A stretch of DNA of 64,000 nucleotides, taken from contig NZ_JQML01000001.1 in assembly GCF_000744705.1 (NCBI RefSeq), forward strand, positions 62,001 to 126,000, written 5' to 3'. Numbering within the stretch: position 1 is the stretch's first letter; every line of letters starts with the position of its first letter. Origin of the DNA: Streptacidiphilus albus JL83. GTDB taxonomy: Bacteria > Actinomycetota > Actinomycetes > Streptomycetales > Streptomycetaceae. Positions 1-63,412 of the stretch are shown here, in pieces. A program made the position numbers and the translations under genes. The notes under the pieces were generated by a model, which was not told the origin of the DNA, did no database searches, and saw only the letters and a program-made list of their open reading frames with translations.

Positions 1-1255
1 GGAAGAGGTCGAAGAGACGTACCGGGGCTCCGCCACGGTCGGTACAAGGGGCGTCCGGAGCGCGGTCCCCCGCGTGGAGGGCTTCCTCGACGAGAGCGGG
101 GCGCATCTCCGCGTTGGGTGGAACACCCCGGTATCCGAGTGCCAGATGGTGCGTGGTGCGGTCACGGCGCGCGGCCAGCTCCCTGACCCGACCCGCCCCT
201 TGGTGGATGCGGGTGCTCACTCCCAGCACCTCCGCCGCAGCGGGCCGGCGCTCCGCCTCGTAGGAGTCCAGGAGCGAGGGTGCTGCCTGGCCGGTTGCCG
301 CGAGCGCCAGTTTCCAGCCCAGGTTGTAGGCGTCCTGGATGCTCGCGTTGATGCCCTGGCCGCCCGCCGGGGAATGAACATGCGCGGAGTCACCGGCCAG
401 GAACACCCGGCCGACCCGGAAGTGCTCCGCCAGCGCTGCTCGTGCCCGGAAGACCGATGACCACAGCACCTTCCGCACCGGCACTCCCGTGCGGGCAGCC
501 ACCAGTTCGCGGACCCGCTCGGGAGCGGGGTCGGGGGTTCCCGTCGCGAACCGTGCGATGACCTGGAAGTAGTCCGTTCTGGCGACGGGACAGATCGCGG
601 TCATGATGCCGACCGCGTCACCCCAGGTGTGCCAGTGCTCGCGGTCCAGTCCGGGAATATCGGCATCGGCCACGAGCAGCGGCCGGGTGTCCACGTCTTC
701 GCGGTCGAACCTCACACCCAGGATTTTCCGTACGGTGCTGCCGCCCCCGTCTGCCCCGACCAGGTAGTCGGCCGCGATCTCCCGCGTACCTCCGTCGGTC
801 CGGACAACCTGGGCCAGCACGCCGGCCTCGTCCTGGGAGAATCCGTCGAGCCGCGCTCCGAACTCGACACGGTGGCCCAGATGCAGCAGTCGCTCGCGAA
901 GCAGTTCCTGGGTACGCGACTGAGGAAGCATCAGGGGCTCGGCATAGGGCGTGGCCCCGGTGGGCTCGCCACGGGCGATGACGTCCCACTCCCTGACGAT
1001 CCTTCCCTCCTCCCAGGCCACCATCGGCGGCAGCGGCGCTCCCTCCGCCTGTACGGAGTCGATGATTCCGAGGTCGTCGAAGATCTCCAGGGTGCGCGGC
1101 TGGAGACCCTTGCCCCGTGATCCCGGAAAGGGACCCGCGCCGGCGTCGATGATCCGGAAGTCGACGTGCCGACGGGCCAGTTCCACCGCCAGGACCAGTC
1201 CGGCAGGTCCTCCTCCGGCAATCAGAACAGATGTGTGGTGGCGATTACTGTCCAC
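1..1255 (-). CDS. FAD-dependent aromatic-type monooxygenase (3' end outside window)
   Basis: A PHBH-fold flavin monooxygenase of the FAD_binding_3 family, which uses NAD(P)H and O2 to hydroxylate or epoxidise a substrate. Visible motifs are the N-terminal dinucleotide fold IAGGGPAG, the middle VGADGGGSTVR (DG motif) and GDSAHVHSPAGGQG (GD motif, FAD ribityl binding). The reading frame is open from a GTG at 1255 to the left edge, about 418 codons; the C-terminus lies outside. GTG 1255 is chosen because AAGGGG sits about 8 nt upstream and the Rossmann strand follows within 10 residues. It is the last visible gene of the minus-strand run starting with the cyclodipeptide synthase and lies 83 bp after the P450. 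The role as a tailoring oxygenase of the dipeptide pathway is inferred from position; the fold assignment is secure. Confidence 0.9.
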   Translation of the reverse strand, partial: MDSNRHHTSVLIAGGGPAGLVLAVELARRHVDFRIIDAGAGPFPGSRGKGLQPRTLEIFDDLGIIDSVQAEGAPLPPMVAWEEGRIVREWDVIARGEPTGATPYAEPLMLPQSRTQELLRERLLHLGHRVEFGARLDGFSQDEAGVLAQVVRTDGGTREIAADYLVGADGGGSTVRKILGVRFDREDVDTRPLLVADADIPGLDREHWHTWGDAVGIMTAICPVARTDYFQVIARFATGTPDPAPERVRELVAARTGVPVRKVLWSSVFRARAALAEHFRVGRVFLAGDSAHVHSPAGGQGINASIQDAYNLGWKLALAATGQAAPSLLDSYEAERRPAAAEVLGVSTRIHQGAGRVRELAARRDRTTHHLALGYRGVPPNAEMRPALVEEALHAGDRAPDAPCTDRGGAPVRLFDLF

Positions 1256-1338
1256 GGCATGTCCCCTTTCCGGTCCTCCGTCATCGTGATGTGGAGGAGG
1301 TCGCTGCCGGCTGTACGCGGTTTCCCCCTTCTGGCGGT

Positions 1339-2580
1339 TCAGGCAGCCAGGAGCCGTCCTTCCACGGTGGGATCGAAGGTGAGGGTGAGTGATTCGGGGC
1401 CGCGGGAGTAGAAGCCGGTCTCTTCGTAGGAGGCGTCCTCGGGGAAGCCGATGTTCTCCATGAGGGCCAGCAGCATCGTCACGACCGTCTCCAGTTCCCT
1501 GCGCGCGAATGCGGCCCCGACGCACGAGTGCATGCCCGCGCCGAACCCGAAGTGGGTAGCGGCGGCGGTGAAGGACCGTTCGGGACCGAGGTCGGTGCGC
1601 TGGAGGTCGAAGGTGTCGGGCCGTTCGAAGACACGCGGGTCGCGGTTGGCGGCGGCGAGCATGCACCAGACCATGGTCTCGGCGGGTATGGCGACACCGG
1701 AGATCTCGACGTTCTCCGCTGTCCTGCGGGGGATCAGTTGCACCGGCGGTGTGTAACGGAGCGTCTCCGCGATGGCGTTGGTCACCAGTCCGGGATCGCC
1801 GCGGACCAGGGCCATCTGATCGGGGTGGGTGATCAGATGCCGGAACAGCAGGGCCAGTGTCTTGTCCGCCGGTTCGGTCGCGGCGAGGAGCACGTTGTGG
1901 CACAGAGCGGTGACCTCGTGCAGGCTCATCCTCCCGCTCTCGTACTCCGTGTGGCACATCAGCGAGATCACATCCTGGCCGGGGTTCTCGCGCCGTTCCT
2001 TGATGAAGGGCCGCAGATAGTCCTCCAGCCGGCGGGCGCACTGGACGCAATGCCGGTATCGCTCCTCGGTCAGAGTGACGCTCGTCACGAATTCGGCCAC
2101 GCCCTGGAACCAGGAGTGCACATTCCGCCAGTTGTCCTTGGGCAGTCCAAGACTGTCCAGCGCGACCCAGATCGCCAGCTGCTGTCCGAAGTCCTTCACC
2201 AGGTCGAACCGGCCGCGCCGCAGATGGGGGCGGATGAGCTGCTCCACGTTGCGGCGGATGAGCGGGATCTGGTCTTCCAGCATCGGCCCGGTGTATCCGC
2301 GGATCATTGTCCGGTGTTTGGCGGTGTGTTCGGCGCCGGTCATCTGTGCCAGGACGCGACCGCGCATGACCGGCTCGGCCCGTTCCCGTAAGGCTTGGGT
2401 GGTGAAGGTCTGGTCCTCGGTCAGAACCCGGCGAACGTCTTCGTGCCGGCTCAGGAAGTAGGCACCGATGCCGGGTTCGTAGTGGACGGGGTCGTTCTCC
2501 CGCAGCTGGGGATACCAGGCGTACGGGTCCCGGGCGAACTTGTCGGACAGGACGCTGATGATGCGGGCAGTCGGATGCAT
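1339..2580 (-). CDS. Cytochrome P450 with atypical I helix
   Basis: A 413-aa bacterial class-I-size P450. The heme loop FGFGAGMHSC places the axial thiolate at Cys353, and the ExxR pair is E272/R275 (AETLRY). The I helix around residues 231-241 reads LLAATEPADKT, so the usual acid-alcohol pair of the A-G-x-E/D-T motif is not recognisable at its normal place. AGGAG lies 8 nt before the ATG. It starts 27 bp after the heme-less P450 homologue and shares its operon with the cyclodipeptide synthase. In known clusters P450s act on cyclodipeptides by hydroxylation, desaturation or C-C/C-N coupling; which applies here cannot be told from sequence. No ferredoxin gene is visible in the operon. Confidence 0.95.
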   Translation of the reverse strand: MHPTARIISVLSDKFARDPYAWYPQLRENDPVHYEPGIGAYFLSRHEDVRRVLTEDQTFTTQALRERAEPVMRGRVLAQMTGAEHTAKHRTMIRGYTGPMLEDQIPLIRRNVEQLIRPHLRRGRFDLVKDFGQQLAIWVALDSLGLPKDNWRNVHSWFQGVAEFVTSVTLTEERYRHCVQCARRLEDYLRPFIKERRENPGQDVISLMCHTEYESGRMSLHEVTALCHNVLLAATEPADKTLALLFRHLITHPDQMALVRGDPGLVTNAIAETLRYTPPVQLIPRRTAENVEISGVAIPAETMVWCMLAAANRDPRVFERPDTFDLQRTDLGPERSFTAAATHFGFGAGMHSCVGAAFARRELETVVTMLLALMENIGFPEDASYEETGFYSRGPESLTLTFDPTVEGRLLAA

Positions 2581-2607
2581 GGTGTTCTCCTCTCATCGGG
2601 TTGGCCG

Positions 2608-3774
2608 TCACCAGGCCACGGGCAGACAGGCGGGACGGATGAACGTCAGATCATTTCTCCAGGGAATCTCGTGTTCATCCACGGCCAGGCGCAGTTGTGG
2701 GAAGCGCTCGAACAGGGCGGGGCAGACGATGGTGAGAACCAGCCTGCTGAGGGCGTCGTCTGCCAGGGGGCCAGGATCCGTGCGAAGGTCTGTGGACCCG
2801 GCGTCCGGACGATGGATGTCGAATTTCGCCGGGGTGGGGTAGTGCTCCTCGTCCCAGGCCGCGCCGAGGGGCGAGGCGCATACCGCGTCTCGGGCCTTGA
2901 TCAGGGTGCCGTGTAGTTCCAGGTCTCTGAGCGCGATATGGGTGGGGCCGAGCACCGTGCCCGGGTGGTAGCGGCGGAGTTCCCCGGCTGCCGCCCGCCA
3001 CAGCACTGGATCGCGCAGGCACTCCCGTAGCGGTTTGGGGTGGAGCAGGAGAGTGAACGGTCCGGTCAGCAATGCCGAGAAGAGTGACCTCGCGCACCGG
3101 ACGAGCAAGCCTGTCACCACGGTGTGCGACGGTTCAGTGTCGGCCTCCCGCTGTTCGCGGGCTTTAAAGGGCGTACCGGCGGCATTACCGCGGACGGGGC
3201 CATCCCGGAGGTGCTCTGTGAGCGAGTGCAGGACCGGGTGCCCGACAGCCGAATTTCCTGTCGGCTCTTCCTGGATCAGAAGGTTCCGCAATTCCTGGGG
3301 ATCGAATGACAGCCCGAAGACATCGCGGCACACGGCGGCTGTTAGCGGCGCTGCCAGTTTTTCCAGCAGATCGGCAGGGTTGTTCCCGGTTTCCATGGCG
3401 TCCAGGACGAGACCCGTCTGTTTCACGATCGAGGCCCGGTGGGATTCCACCGCCCACGTCGCGCAATACTCGGCGCCCGGCTGCCCGGCCCGCGAGCGCG
3501 CTGCCCCGCTGATCCCGGCCGGAGGGGGAAGTGCTTCAGCGGCATCGCTCAGCCGCACGAGGTCCGGGTCGGTGAATACTCGAAGGATGTCGTCCCGGCG
3601 GGAGATCATCCACAGCCGGGATCCGCCCGGAAGCTCGACCGGGCAGACCGGCTGCCGTCGGCGTGCCCAGTGGATCACGGGCGGAGGCGTGCCCAGGGGG
3701 CCCAGCACGAAGGGAAACCTCAACGGTATTTCCGGTGTCCTCGCCGGCATCGGGAGCTGCCTGAGCTGCCTCAT
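2608..3774 (-). CDS. Heme-less cytochrome P450 homologue
   Basis: About 388 aa with P450-like organisation: an ExxR-type ELRRYHPG segment, a following beta region, and a C-terminal ALFERFPQLRLA segment typical of P450 L/K-prime regions. Where the heme loop FGxGxHxCxG should stand there is only DPGPLADDALSRLV, without cysteine, and no I-helix AGxxT motif. It therefore cannot ligate heme in the normal way. P450-fold proteins without the Cys are known as helper subunits (DesVIII/EryCII type) that activate glycosyltransferases; no glycosyltransferase is nearby, so a partner role for the adjacent P450 or the synthase is an inference. ATG 3774 overlaps the synthase stop as TGATG, implying translational coupling; a GTG at 3777 is the alternative start. 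The frame is intact over its full length, which argues against a pseudogene. Confidence 0.8.
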   Translation of the reverse strand: MRQLRQLPMPARTPEIPLRFPFVLGPLGTPPPVIHWARRRQPVCPVELPGGSRLWMISRRDDILRVFTDPDLVRLSDAAEALPPPAGISGAARSRAGQPGAEYCATWAVESHRASIVKQTGLVLDAMETGNNPADLLEKLAAPLTAAVCRDVFGLSFDPQELRNLLIQEEPTGNSAVGHPVLHSLTEHLRDGPVRGNAAGTPFKAREQREADTEPSHTVVTGLLVRCARSLFSALLTGPFTLLLHPKPLRECLRDPVLWRAAAGELRRYHPGTVLGPTHIALRDLELHGTLIKARDAVCASPLGAAWDEEHYPTPAKFDIHRPDAGSTDLRTDPGPLADDALSRLVLTIVCPALFERFPQLRLAVDEHEIPWRNDLTFIRPACLPVAW

Positions 3775-4490
3775 CACGAACCACCCGGCAGTACAGGCTC
3801 GGCCACCACGAACCCCTGTTGTGCAGCTGACCGCAGCCCGGTCGCCGGACCGGCGAGCAGGGCTGCGGCGAGCTCGATCCGCCGGTGGTAGACGAACACC
3901 GAAGAAGCCACGTCAAAGATCGACGGGCTGTCCACGATCAGCGGCAACTCTGCGATCGGATAAGTGACGCAGGCGTCGATCTGCTCCTCACCGGGCTCCG
4001 TATCCGCGATGGACCGGACCGCTCCCCGGGCAACCGCCCGGCAGGCCGCCCTGAGGGCGGGATCGACTCGGTATGCCGCTCTGGCCCGCTCACGCAACGC
4101 CACGTACTCGGGTCGGCTCATCAGCTGAGTCCAGGTATGGACGCGCCGTTCCGGCGTGGACACACCGGCACGCGACAGCGCCAGCACCGCGGGATTCCTG
4201 AGCTGGTTCACAGCTCGCCGCACACGCCCCACTGCCTCCAGCGGCCTGACGCCCGCAGCGGTGAGGGTATGTGCCGCCTCGAATCCGGGAACGAGAACGT
4301 CGACCCTCGTGAAATGTCCGGCTGCCCACTGGACCAACGCCTCCACCCGGCATGGTGTGTAGTAGCCGTTGAACGGGCTCAGACCCACGACGCAGTGGTC
4401 GGAGGCATCGGCGATCCGACGGCAATTCTCGCTCTGTGGTCGAATCAGGAAATCCACGGTCACCATCGCTGACCTGCATCTGTATGCCAC
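3774..4490 (-). CDS. Cyclodipeptide synthase (NYH subfamily)
   Basis: A 238-aa protein matching the AlbC family, which joins two aminoacyl groups taken from charged tRNAs into a 2,5-diketopiperazine. All diagnostic residues are visible at almost the AlbC numbering: nucleophile Ser38 in GLSPFN, Asn41, Tyr177 and Glu181 in YPIAE, and Tyr201-His202 in VYHRR. Asn41, Tyr201 and His202 define the NYH subfamily. QWAAGHFTRVDV and SPSIFDVASSVF also align with AlbC. The GTG at 4490 is preferred because it gives the AlbC N-terminal length; ATG 4466 is an alternative with AGG 7 nt upstream. First gene of the operon with two P450-family genes and a flavin monooxygenase. The product dipeptide cannot be predicted reliably by eye. 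Confidence 0.93.
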   Translation of the reverse strand: MAYRCRSAMVTVDFLIRPQSENCRRIADASDHCVVGLSPFNGYYTPCRVEALVQWAAGHFTRVDVLVPGFEAAHTLTAAGVRPLEAVGRVRRAVNQLRNPAVLALSRAGVSTPERRVHTWTQLMSRPEYVALRERARAAYRVDPALRAACRAVARGAVRSIADTEPGEEQIDACVTYPIAELPLIVDSPSIFDVASSVFVYHRRIELAAALLAGPATGLRSAAQQGFVVAEPVLPGGS

Positions 4491-4979
4491 GTTCTCATGC
4501 CAGTACCTTTCCCGGTCGCCAGGTCTGAAAGTCCGCCATGAAGTGGGCGGCCCGAAGAGAGAAGGCCGTCACGCCAGAATTCACACCGAATTCTCTGCCC
4601 GAACGGCTCAGGTCATTTTGAGACGAAACCTGTCTTCTCGTCACGGCAGCCCTGCGGGCGGCGCCAATACAACTCGACGGTCGAGCCGTGCGCATCACCC
4701 GTGATCACTCCGCAGTGCGCCGACGCCTCCTCGCCGCGCTGCTACACACTACAGGATGTTATGAACATTCGATAGCCCTTATTGCTGTATTAGTTTGGGC
4801 CCGGGAGGCCGCCCTCGATGGGCAGTGGAAATCGTTATTGCGTTCTTTGATGACATTTAGTTCGAATACAATTTCCCTCGGCTGCATTTCGAGCCCGTCG
4901 GCACGATCCTCGCCATCCACGGATCTTCCTCACCGAGGTCCGCTCGGCTCGGCGGCACCACCCGCACGTCGGCAACCGT
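4491..4979. other. AT-richer region upstream of the cyclodipeptide synthase
   Basis: No convincing gene. Positions about 4730-4880 are strikingly poorer in GC than the rest of the window (for example ttattgctgtattag near 4780 and gttctttgatgacatttag near 4843). This stretch probably carries the promoter of the minus-strand operon, or marks a junction of acquired DNA. Short ORFs on both strands here show no codon bias. Confidence 0.5.
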
Positions 4980-5267
4980 GTGGTGATGTCGACGCCTACG
5001 CCTGGGGCCTCGCGCCTTGGCACCGGCCGTGCGTGCTGCCCACCGCGCCCCCGATGGCCAGGCCACTTCGGCCCCGACCTCCCCGGGTTGTTCGCGGAAC
5101 ACACCCTCGGCGACGACATCTTCGCCATTCGTGGCGACGGCAGGCACACCGTGCCGCGCTTCCCCGAATGCCGGCCCTTGGGCCGGCTGGTACTCACCGC
5201 CTCCGGCGGCTGCAGCGTCGTCCCCACGAAGGAGCGCTTGTGGCCGCTGTCGCTCCGCAACCCGTGA
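4980..5267 (+). pseudogene. Possible coding remnant, unrecognised
   Basis: A 95-aa frame whose second half (about 5080-5267) has high GC3 and a plausible globular reading with segments GDDIFAIRGDG and KERLWPLSLRNP. The first part looks less protein-like. I do not recognise the family. No good ribosome binding site is present, so it may be the tail of a decayed gene. The opposite strand also has an open frame here, so the strand itself is not certain. Confidence 0.25.
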
Positions 5268-5671
5268 CGATCTGCCGCTGATCACAGACGTCCACGCGTT
5301 CGGGGTCGCCCGCCCCGAACGCGGGATCGCCTTACCGACTGCTCCGGCTGAGCACCGGAGAACACGCATGCGGCTCGTGCGTGCCCTGATCGTGGCGATC
5401 GACACCGCGATCTCCCGCCCGCGGACGATCACCAGAGCACGATCAAGCCCGTGACCTGCCCGAGCACCCTGCCCCTGCACCACGCCGGCGCCCGTGACCT
5501 GTGGATTTCAGGATGGAATCAGCTCACTGGGCATTCGTCAGTTCATGCCGACCCACCATGACTGGGCTCATGCCCGGAGCAGCAGTAGCTCCACCATCCG
5601 GACAAGAGCCGTCAGACACGGCCCAGGCCCGTATTCCGCGCCCTGAGGATCGTCAAGTCTCCTCGCAGTGA

Positions 5672-5850
5672 CTGGGCTTGATCCGTTTTGACGGACACCT
5701 GAGCTCAGGTGCTTCGGTCCACTTGCTCCCCCTCCCTGGCCGGCCTGGTCCGCGGCCTCCGCCGGGGCTTCGCAGCCGCCACCGCCGACCTCGCCCTGGA
5801 GTGAATTCCGGCCGAGTCCAGGGAAACCTGAATCGCACCAAACGGATCAA
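5672..5850. repeat. Inverted repeat pair, possible IS end remnants
   Basis: CTTGATCCGTTTTG at 5672-5685 is the inverse of CCAAACGGATCAAG at about 5837-5850, with one mismatch. The arms are separated by about 150 bp of non-coding DNA. They could be the ends of a small non-autonomous element or one terminus duplicated in inversion. Confidence 0.5.
5694..5709. repeat. Perfect 16-bp palindrome
   Basis: CACCTGAGCTCAGGTG is fully self-complementary and lies 8 bp inside the left arm of the inverted repeat pair. It could be a dimeric regulator site or part of a mobile element terminus; no gene start is close enough to decide. Confidence 0.45.
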
Positions 5851-6130
5851 GAAGAGATGGGTATGGTCGCGCGGGCTTCGACCTCCTCCGCCCGCAGATC
5901 CTCCACGCCGACTGACCGGACCCCTGGTCATCGCTCCGTATCAAGCGGATCAGAACCACTCCTACTGTCCCTTGACAGTGGCCGATCAGGCAGCGGCGGC
6001 AGGGGCAGCAGCGGCAGGGGTCGACGGCCTCGCGTCGGGCAGCCGTCAAGTGTTCCCTTTCAGCTTCTGGGCTTTGCGAGTGGGGCTCGCGGGTCAGGGA
6101 CCTTTGAGTGAGGGGCGGTGGGGCAGTTGG

Positions 6131-6793
6131 TCAGAGGCTGCGGGCGGTGATGTCGCCCTGGTTGGTGGTGGCGTGGATGTGGAGTTCGGTGGCGCCGTCG
6201 TTCTTGAGGCTGTTGGTGACGCGGCCCTGGGTGGTGCCGGCGTTCAGGGAGGCCGAGACGTCCTTGGCGGCGCCGACCGAGATGCTGCCCGTCTGGGTGC
6301 GGAGCGCGACCCGGCCGCGGGTGGCTTCGGCGATTCGGATGTCGCCCCTGGCGGTGCTGATGTCGGCGGGGCCGCCCAGTCGGCCGACCTCGACGTCGCC
6401 GTCGACGGCGGCGAGGTGCAGGCCGGCGGCCTCGTCGATCTTGATCTGGCGGTACGCGCCCTCGAAGGCGATCTCGCCGAGGCGGCCGACGGCCCGCAGT
6501 TCGGTGCTGGCCGCCTTCGCCTCGATCCGGGAGCCGGCGGGCAGTTGGACGGTCACCTCGATGGATCCGGTCGGGCCGAAGTACTGGTTCTTCGTCGGGA
6601 CCCCGATCCGCAGGACTCCGTCGGTGTATTCGACCGTGGTCTGCTCGGCGGCCTTGACGTCGCGGCTCTTGGAGGCGTCCGCGGGCAGGACCTCGACCGT
6701 GGTGTCGGCCCGGTCGGCGGCGATGAGCTGGACGCGCCCGGAGGGGATGTCGAGGACGGCGGCGATCGGGGCGGGGGTGGCGAACTTCTGCAT
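6131..6793 (-). CDS. DUF4097-type beta-strand repeat protein
   Basis: A 220-aa protein made almost wholly of short beta-strand repeats with alternating hydrophobic residues and frequent Gly/Asp turns (for example GRLGEIAFEG, VDGDVEVGRLGG, STARGDIRIAEATRG). This is the right-handed beta-helix pattern of DUF4097/adhesin-like proteins common in actinomycetes. No signal peptide or membrane segment is present, so it is probably cytoplasmic. ATG 6793 is chosen over longer frames because AGGAGAG precedes it by 4-5 nt and the domain starts right after. A perfect palindrome 79 bp upstream of the start is a likely operator. Function of the family is not established. Confidence 0.85.
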   Translation of the reverse strand: MQKFATPAPIAAVLDIPSGRVQLIAADRADTTVEVLPADASKSRDVKAAEQTTVEYTDGVLRIGVPTKNQYFGPTGSIEVTVQLPAGSRIEAKAASTELRAVGRLGEIAFEGAYRQIKIDEAAGLHLAAVDGDVEVGRLGGPADISTARGDIRIAEATRGRVALRTQTGSISVGAAKDVSASLNAGTTQGRVTNSLKNDGATELHIHATTNQGDITARSL

Positions 6794-6871
6794 GATGCTC
6801 TCCTGCGAGTCTGCGGCCTGCTGGCCCGGTGTTGCTGACATGGGAAACGCTACGTTGCATTCCAATGTCCA

Positions 6872-6887
6872 GCAACAAGCTTGTTGC
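6872..6887. promoter_or_regulatory. Perfect 16-bp palindrome upstream of the DUF4097 gene
   Basis: GCAACAAGCTTGTTGC is a perfect dyad in the AT-richer leader of the DUF4097 gene. Related half-words gttgcat and gttgca recur around 6855 and 6966. This fits a binding site for a dimeric repressor, but no regulator gene is adjacent. Confidence 0.6.
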
Positions 6888-7171
6888 GCGAAAAGGCCAT
6901 CGCTGCTGGTGAATGGCGCTAAATCGTTGCACTGGCGCTGAAGGTCAATGCAATGCCCCGTCCTTGCGTGTTGCAATGGACTGAGAGTGAACGCTATGCA
7001 CGGGGCATCGCCGACGCACGACACACGACGCACCGACACACCGATGCACGAAGGACGTCGACCCGCCGGAGGCCGCTACGAAAGCATCCGTCAGCAAAGG
7101 ACCAACGAGAAGGTGGTCACTGCCAACCGCAGCGTCTGGGCGACTCCTTCTGGCCTGTACCGCTAGACCCC

Positions 7172-7205
7172 GTTGGCCCCCTGCATCCGGGCGCAGGGGG
7201 CCAAC
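7172..7205. terminator. Strong hairpin, 13-bp perfect stem
   Basis: GTTGGCCCCCTGC pairs exactly with GCAGGGGGCCAAC around an 8-nt loop. It stands between the leader of the minus-strand DUF4097 gene and the plus-strand gene at 7287. A GC-rich factor-independent terminator is the simplest reading, though no T-run follows on either strand. Confidence 0.65.
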
Positions 7206-7286
7206 ACTGCAGGTCCAGCGACAGCTGAGCGACAATCGCACCATGGTCTTGGTGGGCCATCGGCGCGACCCGGGATGGGGTGGGGG

Positions 7287-8135
7287 ATGCGGCATCCGGT
7301 GGAGATGTGGCTCGACGATGTGTGGGCACGGACCGTGCTCGTCCAAGTCCTTGGTGGAGGGGAAGGCCACTGCCCTCTGGAAGACCGGCCGATACTGGGC
7401 TGGATTGAGGATCCGGAAGCCCTGTCGGAACTGCGTGTGCTGTCGACTACTGGGTCGTTCACTGGCGATGTCTGTCGGTGCCTGGGCAGCTTGACCCTCA
7501 GCCTGCACGACGCCGATGGAGGGGCGGTCGGGCATGCGAGCCTGCACGGCCTGGACACAGTCGCGTGGGCCCGTGCTCGTTTCGGGGACGACTTGGAGGT
7601 CGCCGACCCGGTGGGTCTGGCGCTGCTGCTGTCCCGGTACGGGGCGTCACGTTGGCTGACCCGTTCTTCCTCGCGTCTCGCGCGGGTCCTCGGGCTCCAG
7701 GAGGGCCGACCGCAATTCCGTCAGGCCGGCCATGGCAGAGCCGGAGCTGACCTGCTGGCCGTCCGTCAGGTCCCCGTTGCGCTGCGGCCCGCGTTGGCCA
7801 GGGTTTCCGGGCAGGAGGCGGCGGATCTGCCCGAGGAGCAGGTGGACGAGCTCCGGCAGGAACTGGTGAGGGCTTGTCCGAATCCCGACGCCCGCAGTTT
7901 GGCTCTGCTTGCCTGGCTCGGGAGCCTGCCCGAGCCGATGGAGGCGGAGTTCGGGGAAGGCGTTCTGGTCCGGCGGCTGCTGGAAGGCCCGTCCCCGCTG
8001 GCTTCGGCGAGTGGCTGGCGCCAACCTCTGGAGGGGATGGTCGCCCTGGGTGTGATGCGTTGGGCCGGAAGCCAGTCGCAGGAGTTTCCCCTGGCGGACC
8101 TTCTGGAGCCTTGCCTGCGCACGCTTTTGGGCTGA
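7287..8135 (+). CDS. Hypothetical protein, 282 aa
   Basis: Codon bias supports this frame throughout. The protein starts with an acidic/aromatic strand (MWLDDVWARTVL), followed by a Leu-rich helical C-terminal half. No catalytic motif, signal peptide or membrane segment is visible and I do not recognise the family. ATG 7287 follows a G-rich run (GGGGTGGGGG) that can act as ribosome binding site; the frame is open further upstream, but that part lies inside the hairpin region. ATG 7305 is an alternative. It stands alone, without obvious operon partners. Confidence 0.7.
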   Translation: MRHPVEMWLDDVWARTVLVQVLGGGEGHCPLEDRPILGWIEDPEALSELRVLSTTGSFTGDVCRCLGSLTLSLHDADGGAVGHASLHGLDTVAWARARFGDDLEVADPVGLALLLSRYGASRWLTRSSSRLARVLGLQEGRPQFRQAGHGRAGADLLAVRQVPVALRPALARVSGQEAADLPEEQVDELRQELVRACPNPDARSLALLAWLGSLPEPMEAEFGEGVLVRRLLEGPSPLASASGWRQPLEGMVALGVMRWAGSQSQEFPLADLLEPCLRTLLG

Positions 8136-8840
8136 TCGCCAGGCAACCCCTGTGCGGCCCTGTGCCAGGGACCTGCCTGTGCAGTTGTGCCCGCACCGAT
8201 CCGGGCACAACCAGGCGGTCTTGTCCGATGGCAGCGCGATCCACAACGGCATGGGCCGATGGGTCTGCGCTGCGTGCGGTTCGCGCAGGATCGTCGAGCT
8301 TCTCACGCCAGCTGACGAGGTCTTCGCGTACTCGGCCGGTGTTGGGGCCCGGGCGGCGCTCGGACCGGGTGCGGCGCGGGGGCGGCGGGCCCGGGACCGG
8401 GGCGTACCCGGCGCGGCCCGGTCGGGAACGGCCCGGCGGCGGGCGCCTGTCTTCCGCACCCCCGGGCGGGCCGGGCCCAGCGGTCCGGGCACGGCCCTCC
8501 CACACCCGGGGGCGCTGCCGCCCACGCCACCGCGAACGGGCGCCCCGCTGTTCCGGCCCGCACCACCCACGACAGCTTCGCCACGGGGAAACGGCTCATC
8601 GCCCGGCGTTCGAGAACCCGCAGCGGCCACCCGTCCGCCGCCACCCACCGGGCCCCGACCGCGCCGGGTCCCTGGTGGAACCCGTCCTGGGGCTTCGCCG
8701 GGAAGCAGCAGACCCGGGTGATCACGAACGATGACGACGCGGCGTCACCGCCCCCGGCAGCAGCCTCCCCGCAGCAACAGCAAGGCAGCAACAGCAAGAT
8801 CGATCGGCGATCCGACCGTCGGCCGCGCACGCGGGTCCGC
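8136..8840. other. Very GC-rich gap with one possible small zinc-ribbon-like ORF
   Basis: Positions about 8152-8340 read on the plus strand as a plausible peptide with a CPHRSGH and CAACGSR pair of Cys/His motifs, suggesting a small metal-binding protein or remnant. The frame then runs on into extremely GC-rich low-complexity DNA (about 8345-8700) where all frames are open by chance. I see nothing else here. Confidence 0.35.
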
Positions 8841-60186: not shown

Positions 60187-60830
60187 ATGCTCTCAGCCGT
60201 GTCGGGACCGGTCGCCGTGCCGCGGGTCGAGGTCCTGGTGGGTCGGGTCGCGGGGGCGAGCGGCAGGCGGCGCGGGGGCTGGCGTTGGAGTTGGCGGCGC
60301 GGGTGTGCGGGGTGGCGGTGGCGGGGTTGCGGCTGGAGCGGGCGGCGAGTGGGCGGCCGTACGTGGTCGGCGGCGGGGGGCGGGTGGAGGTGAGCCTGAG
60401 TCATGCGCGGGGGGTGGTCGCGGTGGCGGCGAGCCGGGAGTCGGCGGTGGGGGTGGACGTCGAGGCGGTGCGTCCGCTCGCGGTCGGGGCGCTGGCCCGG
60501 CGCTGGTTCCCGGCCGACGAGGCGGCGTGGATCGGACGGTGGGGGCCCGGGCGGGAGCCGTCGGCCTTCCTCTGGCTCTGGACCCAGAAGGAGGCGATGG
60601 CCAAGGCGCTGGGCCAGGGCCTGGGCGGCGGAGTCGGCCTGCTGCGCGCAGTGGCGCTGCCGGACGAGTGGCCGACCGGGTGGGCGCAGCGGTGCTGGCC
60701 GCTCACCGCAGTGCCGGAGGTTGCAGAACTCGCGGTGAGCGCTGGTGAGTTGGACGGGTTGATGGTCGCGGTCGCGGCCGCGGGCCCGGGCGCGGCGCGG
60801 GTGGATGTCCGGATCGCTAGAACGGACTGA
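60187..60830 (+). pseudogene. Sfp-type phosphopantetheinyl transferase, N-terminus frameshifted
   Basis: The main frame shows VEVSLSHARGVVAVAASRESAVGVDVEAVRPL with the Mg-binding GVDVE motif and FLWLWTQKEAMAKALGQGLGGG (WxxKEAxxKAxGxG). These enzymes attach the phosphopantetheine arm to carrier proteins of PKS/NRPS. The first 20 residues (VSGPVAVPRVEVLVGRVAG) are in another frame and join the rest if one base is added to the G5 run near 60251-60255. A TTG at 60285 could start the enzyme without its N-terminus, but that would lose a conserved part. Converges with the MFS gene with 14 bp overlap. Sequencing error must be considered. Confidence 0.85.
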
Positions 60831-62094
60831 CCGGATCCTGATCCAGGCCGCGCAGGGCGCGGTCGCCCTGCAGCCAGAGGGCGGTGGCGCCGTACAGCGC
60901 GGCGGCGAGCAGGATCGCGGTGCGGGCGCCCTGGGAGTCGGCCAGCAGGCCGAAGAGCGAGGGGGCCAGCCAGCTGACGCTGGAGCCGAGCAGTTGGACG
61001 GCGTTGCCGGTCTGCGCCTGGAGGTCGTCGGGGGTGATCCGGGTGGCCCGGACCTGGAAGACGATGATCGCGGGCATGATGGTGAAGGTGCTGACGGCGC
61101 CCAGCACGGTCATCAGCCAGACCCAGGGCGCGAACGCGATGCCGACCGCGCAGAACGGCAGCAGCCAGGACGTGATCAGCACCCAGGCGCGACCGCCGAG
61201 GAGCTTGGCCAGCCGCGGGCCGAGCAGTGAACCGCCCAGCCCGCAGAGGGCGTTGACCGACACCATGGCACCGACCTCGGTCGGGTCGGCCCCCCGGCTG
61301 CGGGCCAGCACGATCACCATCAGCAGCATGCCCGCGGCGACCGCGTTCACCGCGGCTCCCCACAGGGCGTACATCCGCAGGTAGGGGTTGCCCAGGACGT
61401 AGCGCAGGCCGGCGGTGACGACGCGGCGCAGCGGTTCACGCCGGGCGCCCGTGGCGGGCCGGCGTTCGGGGTCGAGCGGGCTGCGGACCAGGGCCGAGGT
61501 GACGGTGATCGCCCCGAAGGAGAGCGCGTCCAGGCCGAACGGGAGCGACTGTGCCAGGCCGAAGAGCGCGCCGCCGACCGGCGGCCCGATCATCGCGGCG
61601 GCCTGGCCGCGGGCCTGGGTGAGGGCCATCGCGGCGGGCAGTTGGGCGGACGGGACGACCCGGCGCACCGCGCCGCGGCTGGCGCCGGTGAAGAACGCCG
61701 AGGAGCAGCCCTGCACCGCGCCGACCACCATCAGCTGCGGCAGCCAGATGTGGTGGGCCAGCACGGCCGGCACCACGCTGCCGACCGCGAGCAGTTGCAG
61801 CAGGGAGGTGACCACCATGATGCGCTTGCGCGGGTAGCGGTCCGCGACCACCCCGGCGGGCAGCAGCATCAGCAGGCTGCCGACCAGGGTGGCGCTGCCG
61901 ACCAGGCCCGCCTTGGCCGCCGAGCCGGTGGCGGCCAGCACCAGCAGCGGGTAGCAGATGCCCGACATCTGGGTACCGAGCGCGGACACCGCCTGCCCGC
62001 TCCACAGCAGGTTGAAGTCGCGGTTGCGGTGCAGCGGTCGCGGCTCGGCGGGCCGGCCGTCGACGTCGTCGTCGGAGGTCTGTTCGGTGGTCAC
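60817..62094 (-). CDS. MFS exporter (MFS_3 type)
   Basis: A 425-aa, 12-helix transporter of the EntS-like family, related in type to the gene at 14354. Motif A AGVVADRYPRKRIMVV, first-helix FNLLWSGQAVSALGTQMS and further Gly-rich helices. Expected role: export of a pathway product. The start ATG lies 22 bp after the P450 stop, so it belongs to that operon. Its stop overlaps the end of the convergent phosphopantetheinyl transferase gene by 14 bp. Confidence 0.92.
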   Translation of the reverse strand: MTTEQTSDDDVDGRPAEPRPLHRNRDFNLLWSGQAVSALGTQMSGICYPLLVLAATGSAAKAGLVGSATLVGSLLMLLPAGVVADRYPRKRIMVVTSLLQLLAVGSVVPAVLAHHIWLPQLMVVGAVQGCSSAFFTGASRGAVRRVVPSAQLPAAMALTQARGQAAAMIGPPVGGALFGLAQSLPFGLDALSFGAITVTSALVRSPLDPERRPATGARREPLRRVVTAGLRYVLGNPYLRMYALWGAAVNAVAAGMLLMVIVLARSRGADPTEVGAMVSVNALCGLGGSLLGPRLAKLLGGRAWVLITSWLLPFCAVGIAFAPWVWLMTVLGAVSTFTIMPAIIVFQVRATRITPDDLQAQTGNAVQLLGSSVSWLAPSLFGLLADSQGARTAILLAAALYGATALWLQGDRALRGLDQDPVSPF

Positions 62095-62116
62095 CGGGTG
62101 CGCCCCCGTGGTGCGG

Positions 62117-63412
62117 CTAGCACACGCTGACCGGGAAGTCGGCGAAGCCGCGCAGCACCGTGCCGCGGCGGACCGGGGCGCCGGCGGCGGCCAGCTTCGG
62201 GAAGCGCTCCAGCAGCGCGGGGAAGAACACCGCGGCCTGCATCCGGGCCAGCGGCGCGCCCAGGCAGTGGTGCACGCCGCCGCCGAAGGAGAAGACGGTC
62301 GGGCCGCCGGTCCTGGTGATGTCGAAGACGTCGGGGTCGGGGAAGGCGCACGGGTCCCGGTTGGCGGCGCCGAGCATCATCACCACCTGCCCGCCCGCCG
62401 ACACCGGGACGCCGTCGATCACGCCGTCCTCGCCCGCGACCCGGGCCATCGCCTGCACCGGGGTGTCGTAGCGCAGCATCTCCTCCACCGCGCCGCCGAC
62501 CAACCTCGGTTCGGCGCGCAGCAGTTCCGCCTGGTCGGGATGGGCCAGCAGGGCGGCCAGACCGTTCAGCAGCATGTCGACCATGCTCTCGATGGCGGCG
62601 CTGAAGACCAGGGTGAGCGTCTGTTCCAACTCGTCCTGGGTCAGCGGCTCTTCGGCCGAGCCGACCGAGCCCGCCGAGCCCGCCGAGCCCGCCGAGCCCG
62701 CCGAGCCCGTCGCACCGGCCGGGTCCGTCGCCGCGACCAGGGCGGTGGTGACGTCGTCGCGGGGGTCGGCCCGGCGGCGGGCCGCGAGTTCGCCGAAGTA
62801 GCCGGTGAGCGCGGCCCCGGCACGGTCGATGACCGCGAGGTGGGCGTCCACCCCGCCGCCGTCCACGGCGAGCCGCAGGCCCTCCAGGGGCTCCCGCAGC
62901 CGGGGCTGGTCCTCCTCGGGCACGCCGAGCACCTTGCCGATGACCGCGATGGGCAGGCCGGCCGCGAGCACCTCGTGCAGGTCCACGGGCGAGCCGTCGG
63001 CCCCCTGCACGGCGACCTGGTCGAGGATCCGGCCGGTCAGGTCGGCCACGTACGCGCGCAGGGCGGCGGCGCGGCGCTGGGTGAAGGCGCCGCCGACCAG
63101 CCGGCGCAGTCGGGTGTGGCCGGGCGGGTCCTGGAAGAGGAAGGACTCGGTGGTGGCCCGCAGGCCGGGGTGGTCGCGCCAGTCGGGGCGCTTGAGGTCC
63201 ATCCAGGCCGCGTTCTGCGCATGGAAGCGGGGGTCGCGGCTGACGGCCACGCAGTCCTCGTAGCGGGTGAGCAGGAGGCCGCCGCCGGGTGTGGGGTGCA
63301 CCGGGGAGTGCGTCCGCAGCTGCGCGTAGTGCGGGTACGGCTGCGCAGTGCCCTGCGGGGTCCGCAGGGCCGCCAGCGCCTCGGCCACCGGGTCCGCGTC
63401 AGGCGAGGTCAT
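62117..63412 (-). CDS. Cytochrome P450 with repeat-rich insertion
   Basis: A 431-aa P450. Cys383 in FSFGGGVHHCLGAP is the heme ligand; EMLRY (E311/R314) is the ExxR. The I-helix centre is SAAIESM, with Ser in place of the usual Thr. An unusual insertion of about 25 residues (231-255), made of repeated G-S-A triplets, stands before the I helix, where other P450s have a short loop; it is encoded by a GCC-GAG-C repeat tract at 62655-62712. ATG 63412 overlaps the upstream hydrolase gene by 14 bp, so the two are coupled. Part of a probable tailoring operon with an exporter. Confidence 0.92.
   Translation of the reverse strand: MTSPDADPVAEALAALRTPQGTAQPYPHYAQLRTHSPVHPTPGGGLLLTRYEDCVAVSRDPRFHAQNAAWMDLKRPDWRDHPGLRATTESFLFQDPPGHTRLRRLVGGAFTQRRAAALRAYVADLTGRILDQVAVQGADGSPVDLHEVLAAGLPIAVIGKVLGVPEEDQPRLREPLEGLRLAVDGGGVDAHLAVIDRAGAALTGYFGELAARRRADPRDDVTTALVAATDPAGATGSAGSAGSAGSAGSVGSAEEPLTQDELEQTLTLVFSAAIESMVDMLLNGLAALLAHPDQAELLRAEPRLVGGAVEEMLRYDTPVQAMARVAGEDGVIDGVPVSAGGQVVMMLGAANRDPCAFPDPDVFDITRTGGPTVFSFGGGVHHCLGAPLARMQAAVFFPALLERFPKLAAAGAPVRRGTVLRGFADFPVSVC

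Follow-up and report, generated by a model that had tools for sequence, protein, structure and literature searches.

A cyclodipeptide synthase cassette of Streptacidiphilus albus with a conserved heme-less P450

We analysed a window of 64,000 nucleotides from Streptacidiphilus albus JL83, whose assembly places it at bases 62001-126000 of one contig of 9.9 Mb. At one edge of this window lies a single minus-strand operon encoding a cyclodipeptide synthase (CDPS), a heme-less cytochrome P450 homologue (here P4L), a canonical P450 and a group-A flavin monooxygenase (FMO). Given the position of the window on the contig, the operon is 60-66 kb from one contig end. An earlier, sequence-only reading had proposed these four genes as an operon leading to an oxidised diketopiperazine. 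All four are present, as profile scores and motifs agree, they are contiguous, and the genes support such a pathway well. However, the window edge cuts the operon. A methyltransferase and an ABM-domain protein come next in the genome, so that the operon has six genes rather than four, in the order CDPS, P4L, CypX-type P450, FMO, methyltransferase and ABM protein.

The CDPS (3774..4466, minus strand) belongs to the NYH subfamily and scores 194.3 bits with the Pfam CDPS profile (PF16715; cut-off 27) and 219 with TIGR04539 (cut-off 45). Translation probably begins at the ATG at 4466, giving 230 amino acids, rather than at the earlier GTG at 4490, because two close relatives described below have an in-frame stop between both candidate starts. 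The catalytic Ser, Asn, Tyr, Glu, Tyr and His (SNYEYH) are all there, as the sequence-only reading had stated; its Ser38, numbered from the GTG, is Ser30 when counted from the ATG. P4L (389 amino acids; 2608..3777, minus strand) overlaps the CDPS stop by 4 bases. The canonical P450, of the CypX/CYP134A1 family (413 amino acids; 1339..2580, minus strand), is preceded by AGAGGAG. The 5' part of the FMO occupies 1..1255 on the minus strand with a GTG start at 1255, and the complete protein of 500 amino acids is encoded at genome positions 61753-63255. The window part scores 263.5 bits with FAD_binding_3 (cut-off 22), and the complete protein bears the motifs GGGPAGL, GADGG and GDSAH (GxGxxG, DG and GD) at residues 15, 168 and 289. 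The S-adenosylmethionine-dependent methyltransferase (Pfam Methyltransf_11) and the ABM-domain protein lie at genome positions 60817-61665 and 60441-60734. By their coordinates, the intergenic gaps are -4, 27, 83, 87 and 82 bases in operon order, and a purine-rich stretch, judged by eye, directly precedes each of the last four genes. The cassette has a GC content of 67.1%, compared with 70.6% and 68.8% in its flanks.

All six genes occur in the same order in Streptomyces sp. DvalAA-43 (L011) and ADI96-02 (L012), with protein identities of 85-98%, which places the gene set far above chance. The DNA is 95% identical over 6.8 kb in L012 and 90% identical over 6.5 kb in L011, and the match stops 60-150 bases past the ABM gene. 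On the other side of the operon, conservation with L012 is unbroken over 4467..5208, the probable promoter region. A CDPS alignment scan of 84,980 genomes, one per species, gave 18 loci, L011 and L012 among them. Protein searches found heme-less P450 relatives in Streptomyces, Kitasatospora and Embleya, and one more on a 16,846-base contig labelled jgi. A CDPS (70%), a heme-less P450 (54%) and a CypX-type P450 (79%) are all listed with a contig of that length, which suggests a single locus. The cassette is uncommon: at E <= 1e-100, the source genome and one other are the only carriers of the heme-less protein among 391 genomes of the order. Immediately past the ABM gene there is an IS4/5-family transposase fragment (PF13340; L002:9652-10290), and transposase-like fragments, as read from the sequence, also lie close to the cassettes of L011 and L012; these fragments suggest mobility. 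Homologues of P4L on plasmids came to 7 records, the best at 36% identity. Upstream of the cassette, L011 (about 4815-8698) and L012 (6973-8895) share a DNA-similar stretch, which in L012 carries genes for a selinadiene-synthase-like terpene synthase (253.9 bits, below the cut-off of 450) and for a methyltransferase that shares about 36% identity with the cassette enzyme. DNA comparison found no match to these L012 genes beside the cassette of the window.

P4L has the fold of a P450, and its structure model matches that fold in Foldseek and VIA-align searches, yet it is without the FGxGxHxCxG heme motif. In an alignment of P4L and its homologues (A4), the heme Cys is present in all 19 heme-bearing proteins, while Leu, Val or Ile takes its place in all nine proteins of the cassette clade. 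The two groups were defined by clade, and this grouping coincides with the motif. In P4L the replacement is Leu338, within the former Cys loop (residues 326-341; 2755..2802, minus strand, by arithmetic). Lost along with the Cys are a loop His and a C-helix His (each in 19/19 heme-bearing proteins) and the beta1-4 Arg (17/19); the I-helix acid, Glu or Asp in most relatives, has become Arg, and ExxR is retained. Residues newly invariant in the heme-less clade include Cys228 and Ala229 (both in the I-helix), Arg268, Gly273, Pro278, Glu310 and Cys352. A4 and a further alignment, A5, have 28 rows each, drawn from the homologues and loci then at hand with near-copies omitted; a P450 that lacks a neighbouring CDPS (L004) was kept in A4 and in the tree, where it forms a long branch whose position is uncertain, and one locus cut by a contig end (L024) was excluded from the heme counts.

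In the tree, the heme-less clade is supported at 100/100 and nested (98/90) among heme-bearing P450s that are partners of a CDPS, on a stem of length 0.77. A heme-bearing homologue of P4L stands directly 3' of the CDPS in 18 of the 22 loci first examined, often with a 4-base overlap. The alignment and tree show a single loss of the heme ligand, in an ancestral partner P450 of the CDPS. The heme-less P450 pointed out by the sequence-only reading is real and is not a random extra gene. At about 7.07 Mb, the source genome also encodes another P4L-family P450 (L054:5042-6244), heme-bearing and 32-34% identical, with no CDPS adjoining.

We considered how selection has acted on P4L since this loss. 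The ratio of nonsynonymous to synonymous substitution rates (dN/dS) of P4L is 0.279, 0.311 and 0.261 in three genome pairs (z of -5.64, -3.58 and -5.98). For the other cassette genes it is 0.145-0.187 (CDPS), 0.117-0.145 (CypX-type P450; in L011 compared only over the 297-residue stretch before a frameshift), 0.156-0.207 (FMO), 0.360-0.423 (methyltransferase) and 0.141-0.187 (ABM protein). At greater depth, P4L is 53% identical to the heme-less protein P0008 over residues 16-389, unevenly distributed: 19% in the former Cys loop, 22% from B to C, 75% from the L-helix to the C-terminus (P4L residues 342-389; 2611..2754, minus strand, by arithmetic) and 74% in K-L. In 111 pairs of heme-bearing proteins with 48-60% overall identity, L004 omitted, the same regions average 73%, 60%, 50% (standard deviation 0.04) and 60%. 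By this one deep comparison of sequences, the heme pocket is released, and constraint appears to have moved to the face formed by the L-helix and C-terminus.

A predicted structure agrees in part with such a shift. The P4L model has a mean predicted local distance difference test (pLDDT) score of 76.2, with 58 residues below 50, mainly 79-105, 171-179, 210-214 and 327-339; its C-helix region is not resolved and its G-helix is short. For a heme-bearing control (L021) modelled from the same alignment of 28 rows, the mean is 89.4, 3 residues fall below 50, and the C and G helices are long.

The canonical P450 bears the heme motif FGFGAGMHSC. It matches Bacillus subtilis CypX at 463.8 bits over residues 4-403 of 413 without gaps, and the two have the I-helix sequence AATEPADKT in common. 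A P450 79% identical to it (P0038) reaches 503.4 bits with the CypX/CYP134A1 profile TIGR04538. By sequence, we assign it to the family of CypX, the pulcherriminic acid synthase; the sequence-only reading saw a P450 but did not name this family. CypX converts cyclo(Leu-Leu) to pulcherriminic acid via ring aromatisation and N-oxidation (PMC7954767; this and the other cited papers are drawn on in part). For the cassette P450, a reaction of this kind is predicted from its family. A CypX-family P450 was found in 9 of 150 genomes drawn, one of them bearing the cassette (G471). Seven of the other eight genomes have a CDPS elsewhere, with motifs of the cYY (6 genes) and cW (3 genes) types. We rejected an inference of substrate from these other P450s, as they show no clear pairing with a CDPS. 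Four of the loci (L046, L047, L049 and L051) have no CDPS within about 5 kb and have an ATPase- or regulator-like gene nearby, as well as, in three of them, an MFS-like gene read from the sequence; the L046 P450 was scanned with NCBI TIGR04538, a family named CDPS-associated.

The substrate of the CDPS was approached through its pocket motifs, VGLPWLIF (P1) and VGASRIE (P2). The pocket positions were inferred in this analysis, and the mapping reproduces the motifs in Table 2 of Gondry et al. (PMC5816076) in three loci (L015, L020 and L025) as well as the cYY motifs in six genes. The pockets are unlike those of the cYY group (VG(V/I)TMLFN and L.(F/Y).QLP), so they give no support to the label cyclo(L-tyrosyl-L-tyrosyl) synthase, which one source gives to some relatives. 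In a comparison by hand with YvmC alone, they are also unlike this member of the cLL group. The P1 motif resembles that of the cPX group, and the backbone of the CDPS tree lacks resolution. We therefore rejected an assignment of the product from motif or tree, the motif lying between Pro- and Leu-accepting enzymes. The first pocket most likely accepts an aliphatic residue (Leu-like or Pro). Elsewhere in the family, the NYH His is replaced by Pro in two Lysobacter antibioticus enzymes (L023 and L025) and by Asn in L009, and the CDPS of L025 bears a Pro-Arg pocket motif.

Both the ancestral P450 and P4L appear to be tied closely to the CDPS. Taking P450 starts as the in-frame candidates nearest the CDPS stop, a 4-base overlap of the two genes is seen in 15 of the 26 loci having both, although several of these loci are near-copies (e.g., L030 resembles L021). 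One of the others is a natural fusion, in which Mycobacterium montefiorense encodes a CDPS and a homologous heme-bearing P450 in one frame of 642 amino acids (L014:10019-11947), and the rest are spaced by -38 to +37 bases. A CDPS-P450 fusion is likewise reported by Gondry et al. (PMC5816076). From the overlaps and fusions it follows that the ancestral P450 probably was, and P4L probably remains, translationally coupled to the CDPS. Methyltransferase-like genes, read from the sequence, adjoin some heme-bearing CDPS-P450 pairs (L025:11902-12669, L006:687-1487 and L013:9115-9900); the cassette methyltransferase had no tblastn match to them among the matches listed.

These observations can be combined into a model of the cassette. 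The CDPS would join two aminoacyl-tRNAs into a cyclodipeptide, making this a six-gene tRNA-dependent cassette. By analogy with CypX in the pulcherriminic acid pathway, the CypX-type P450 may then oxidise the ring of this diketopiperazine in the direction of a hydroxypyrazine. Group-A FMOs and ABM oxygenases typically act on electron-rich aromatic substrates, and an electron-rich heteroaromatic would suit the FMO, the methyltransferase and the ABM oxygenase as next enzymes. The product would probably be a tailored, hydroxypyrazine-like diketopiperazine. In this scheme, CypX-type chemistry took over the oxidation and the displaced partner P450 stayed, in convergence with EryCII and DesVIII. It would now be a subunit without catalytic function, coupled to the CDPS in translation and bound to the CDPS, to the replacement P450 or to both; bridging the CDPS to the new P450 would be an alternative binding mode. 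We favour this reading as a whole by a modest margin over its being wrong. A bolder claim is that, in this cassette, natural-product biosynthesis gave rise to a P450 pseudoenzyme a second time and independently. A catalytic P450, displaced by another P450 family, would have become an obligate non-catalytic part of a CDPS-P450 complex, with constraint moved to its L-helix and C-terminal face; this we propose tentatively, its chances being a little under even.

Several points weigh against this interpretation and should be considered. The CDPS pocket motifs do not exactly match any characterised group, and full ring aromatisation would be blocked in a product that contains proline. The canonical P450 scores 497.2 bits with TIGR04538, 2.8 short of the cut-off of 500. 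A CypX-family P450 of S. chartreusis (P0101) outscores it against CypX (495.7 vs 463.8 bits), and no CDPS lies within about 5 kb of the Streptomyces CypX-family P450s in 7 of 7 loci examined (flanks of about 5 kb on each side, for 7 of the 8 non-cassette genomes); membership of the family is therefore no proof of a cyclodipeptide substrate. The draft of L011 has a frameshift near codon 297 of the CypX-type P450 (L011:11905-13144), either a real lesion or an assembly error. The comparison of constraint depends on a single deeply diverged heme-less sequence, P0008, and other regions differ little from heme-bearing pairs: N-terminus, 65 vs 61%; C-D, 49 vs 47%; I-to-K, 64 vs 59%; F-G, 26 vs 34%. 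The Cys loop is the weakest stretch of the control model too, so that low confidence there is not telling in P4L and only the B-C and G contrast is. Lastly, the partner of P4L, whether the CDPS or the CypX-type P450, is putative.

Among other explanations, the cassette could make a cyclo(Pro-X) that the CypX-type P450 merely hydroxylates, with no aromatisation of the ring. By a hand count against Table 2 of PMC5816076, with rows taken by product, P1 agrees in 6 of 8 positions with the Pro/Arg and Pro/Met rows and in 5 of 8 with the Leu row. However, Gondry et al. regard a prediction of Pro from this motif alone as uncertain, and the described CypX aromatises cyclo(Leu-Leu). We consider this explanation unlikely, although it is the strongest of the alternatives. 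P4L itself might instead be a decaying remnant that became functionless on the arrival of the CypX-type P450 and is retained merely by its position in the operon. Its missing heme-pocket residues, drifting pocket regions, long stem branch and a dN/dS about twice that of the neighbouring P450 would fit decay, which is nevertheless improbable in view of nine distinct heme-less proteins with identities down to 54%, most of them full or nearly full length, a dN/dS of 0.26-0.31 across all three genome pairs, and an identity from L-helix to C-terminus of 0.75 vs 0.50 in heme-bearing pairs.

The retained fold and the new clade-invariant residues could also point to a heme-free catalyst. With the heme gone, its pocket might take up the diketopiperazine or an intermediate for a non-redox step, or hold another cofactor. 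Against this, the B-C and F-G regions, which form the substrate side in P450s, rank in P4L with the parts of lowest conservation and lowest model confidence. We rate this idea as slightly less probable again than decay. Very improbable, in our judgement, is that P4L is an activator of the DesVIII/EryCII type for a glycosyltransferase encoded elsewhere in the genome and acting on the product. Its lesions do resemble those of EryCII: the Cys and the C-helix are gone and the G-helix is shorter, and the I and L helices remain. However, P4L scores 41 bits with TIGR04515 against a cut-off of 343. This profile is matched at 1e-5 by all 28 members of A4, heme-bearing and heme-less, so the match reflects general P450 similarity. 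The tree roots P4L among CDPS-partner P450s, and no glycosyltransferase is found among the six cassette proteins (some flanking open reading frames were scanned). The matches listed by Foldseek and VIA-align contain no glycosyltransferase-activator entry, an absence that is not evidence.

Returning to the scaffold interpretation, we conclude that the gene set consists of ordinary parts (CDPS, CypX-type P450 and FMO) in a combination for which we found no description. The sequence-only reading had called the set unfamiliar, and our literature search for an identical cluster with a reported product likewise gave none; nor was a heme-less P450 adjoining a CDPS, or this gene set, recognised as a cluster there, most subscription papers being outside its coverage. 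The cassette's one unusual part is the conserved heme-less P450, which by sequence descends from the CDPS's own partner and probably serves as a scaffold. If true, a heme-less P450 derived from a CDPS partner and still coupled to the CDPS would show that other pathways, too, can turn a P450 fold into a scaffold, and it would suggest that heme-bearing CDPS-P450 pairs form physical complexes. The cassette is also a compact target for finding a tailored diketopiperazine or hydroxypyrazine.

Known systems resemble the cassette in different parts. The mycocyclosin operon (Rv2275-CYP121) likewise has a CDPS followed by a P450, but its Tyr-Tyr pockets, of the VG(V/I)TMLFN type, are unmatched in the cassette CDPS. 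CDPS-P450 loci of Lysobacter antibioticus, Streptomyces roseoverticillatus and S. natalensis share a homologous CDPS and P450, their order and their close spacing; they differ in that the P450 has the heme motif and in that no CypX-type P450 or FMO was found in the locus DNA examined. Assigning numbered enzymes to these loci by species (and CDPS 83, at L025, also by pocket motif), CDPS 83 of L. antibioticus makes cyclo(Pro-Arg), CDPS 81 of S. roseoverticillatus gave no product seen in E. coli, and none was seen for CDPS 80 of S. natalensis. The yvmC-cypX operon of B. subtilis combines a CDPS with a P450 of the same family, the 463.8-bit match being nearly full length. However, its CDPS pockets, read by hand, are LGLAFFFL and MAAGRWK rather than VGLPWLIF and VGASRIE, and the cassette has the heme-less P450, FMO, methyltransferase and ABM protein in addition. 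To our knowledge, the heme-less P450s with a known biosynthetic role are glycosyltransferase activators, the one such family that our literature search turned up. The crystal structure of EryCII lacks the Cys and the C helices, is partly missing G and H, and keeps I, J, K and L; EryCII stabilises and activates its enzyme partner (PMC3391682). P4L resembles EryCII and DesVIII in having a P450 fold that lacks the Cys ligand, with the C-helix lost and the core helices kept, and in the place of its gene beside a presumed partner, but it differs from them in its 41 bits against 343, in a cassette that has no glycosyltransferase and in its independent origin among the P450 partners of CDPSs.

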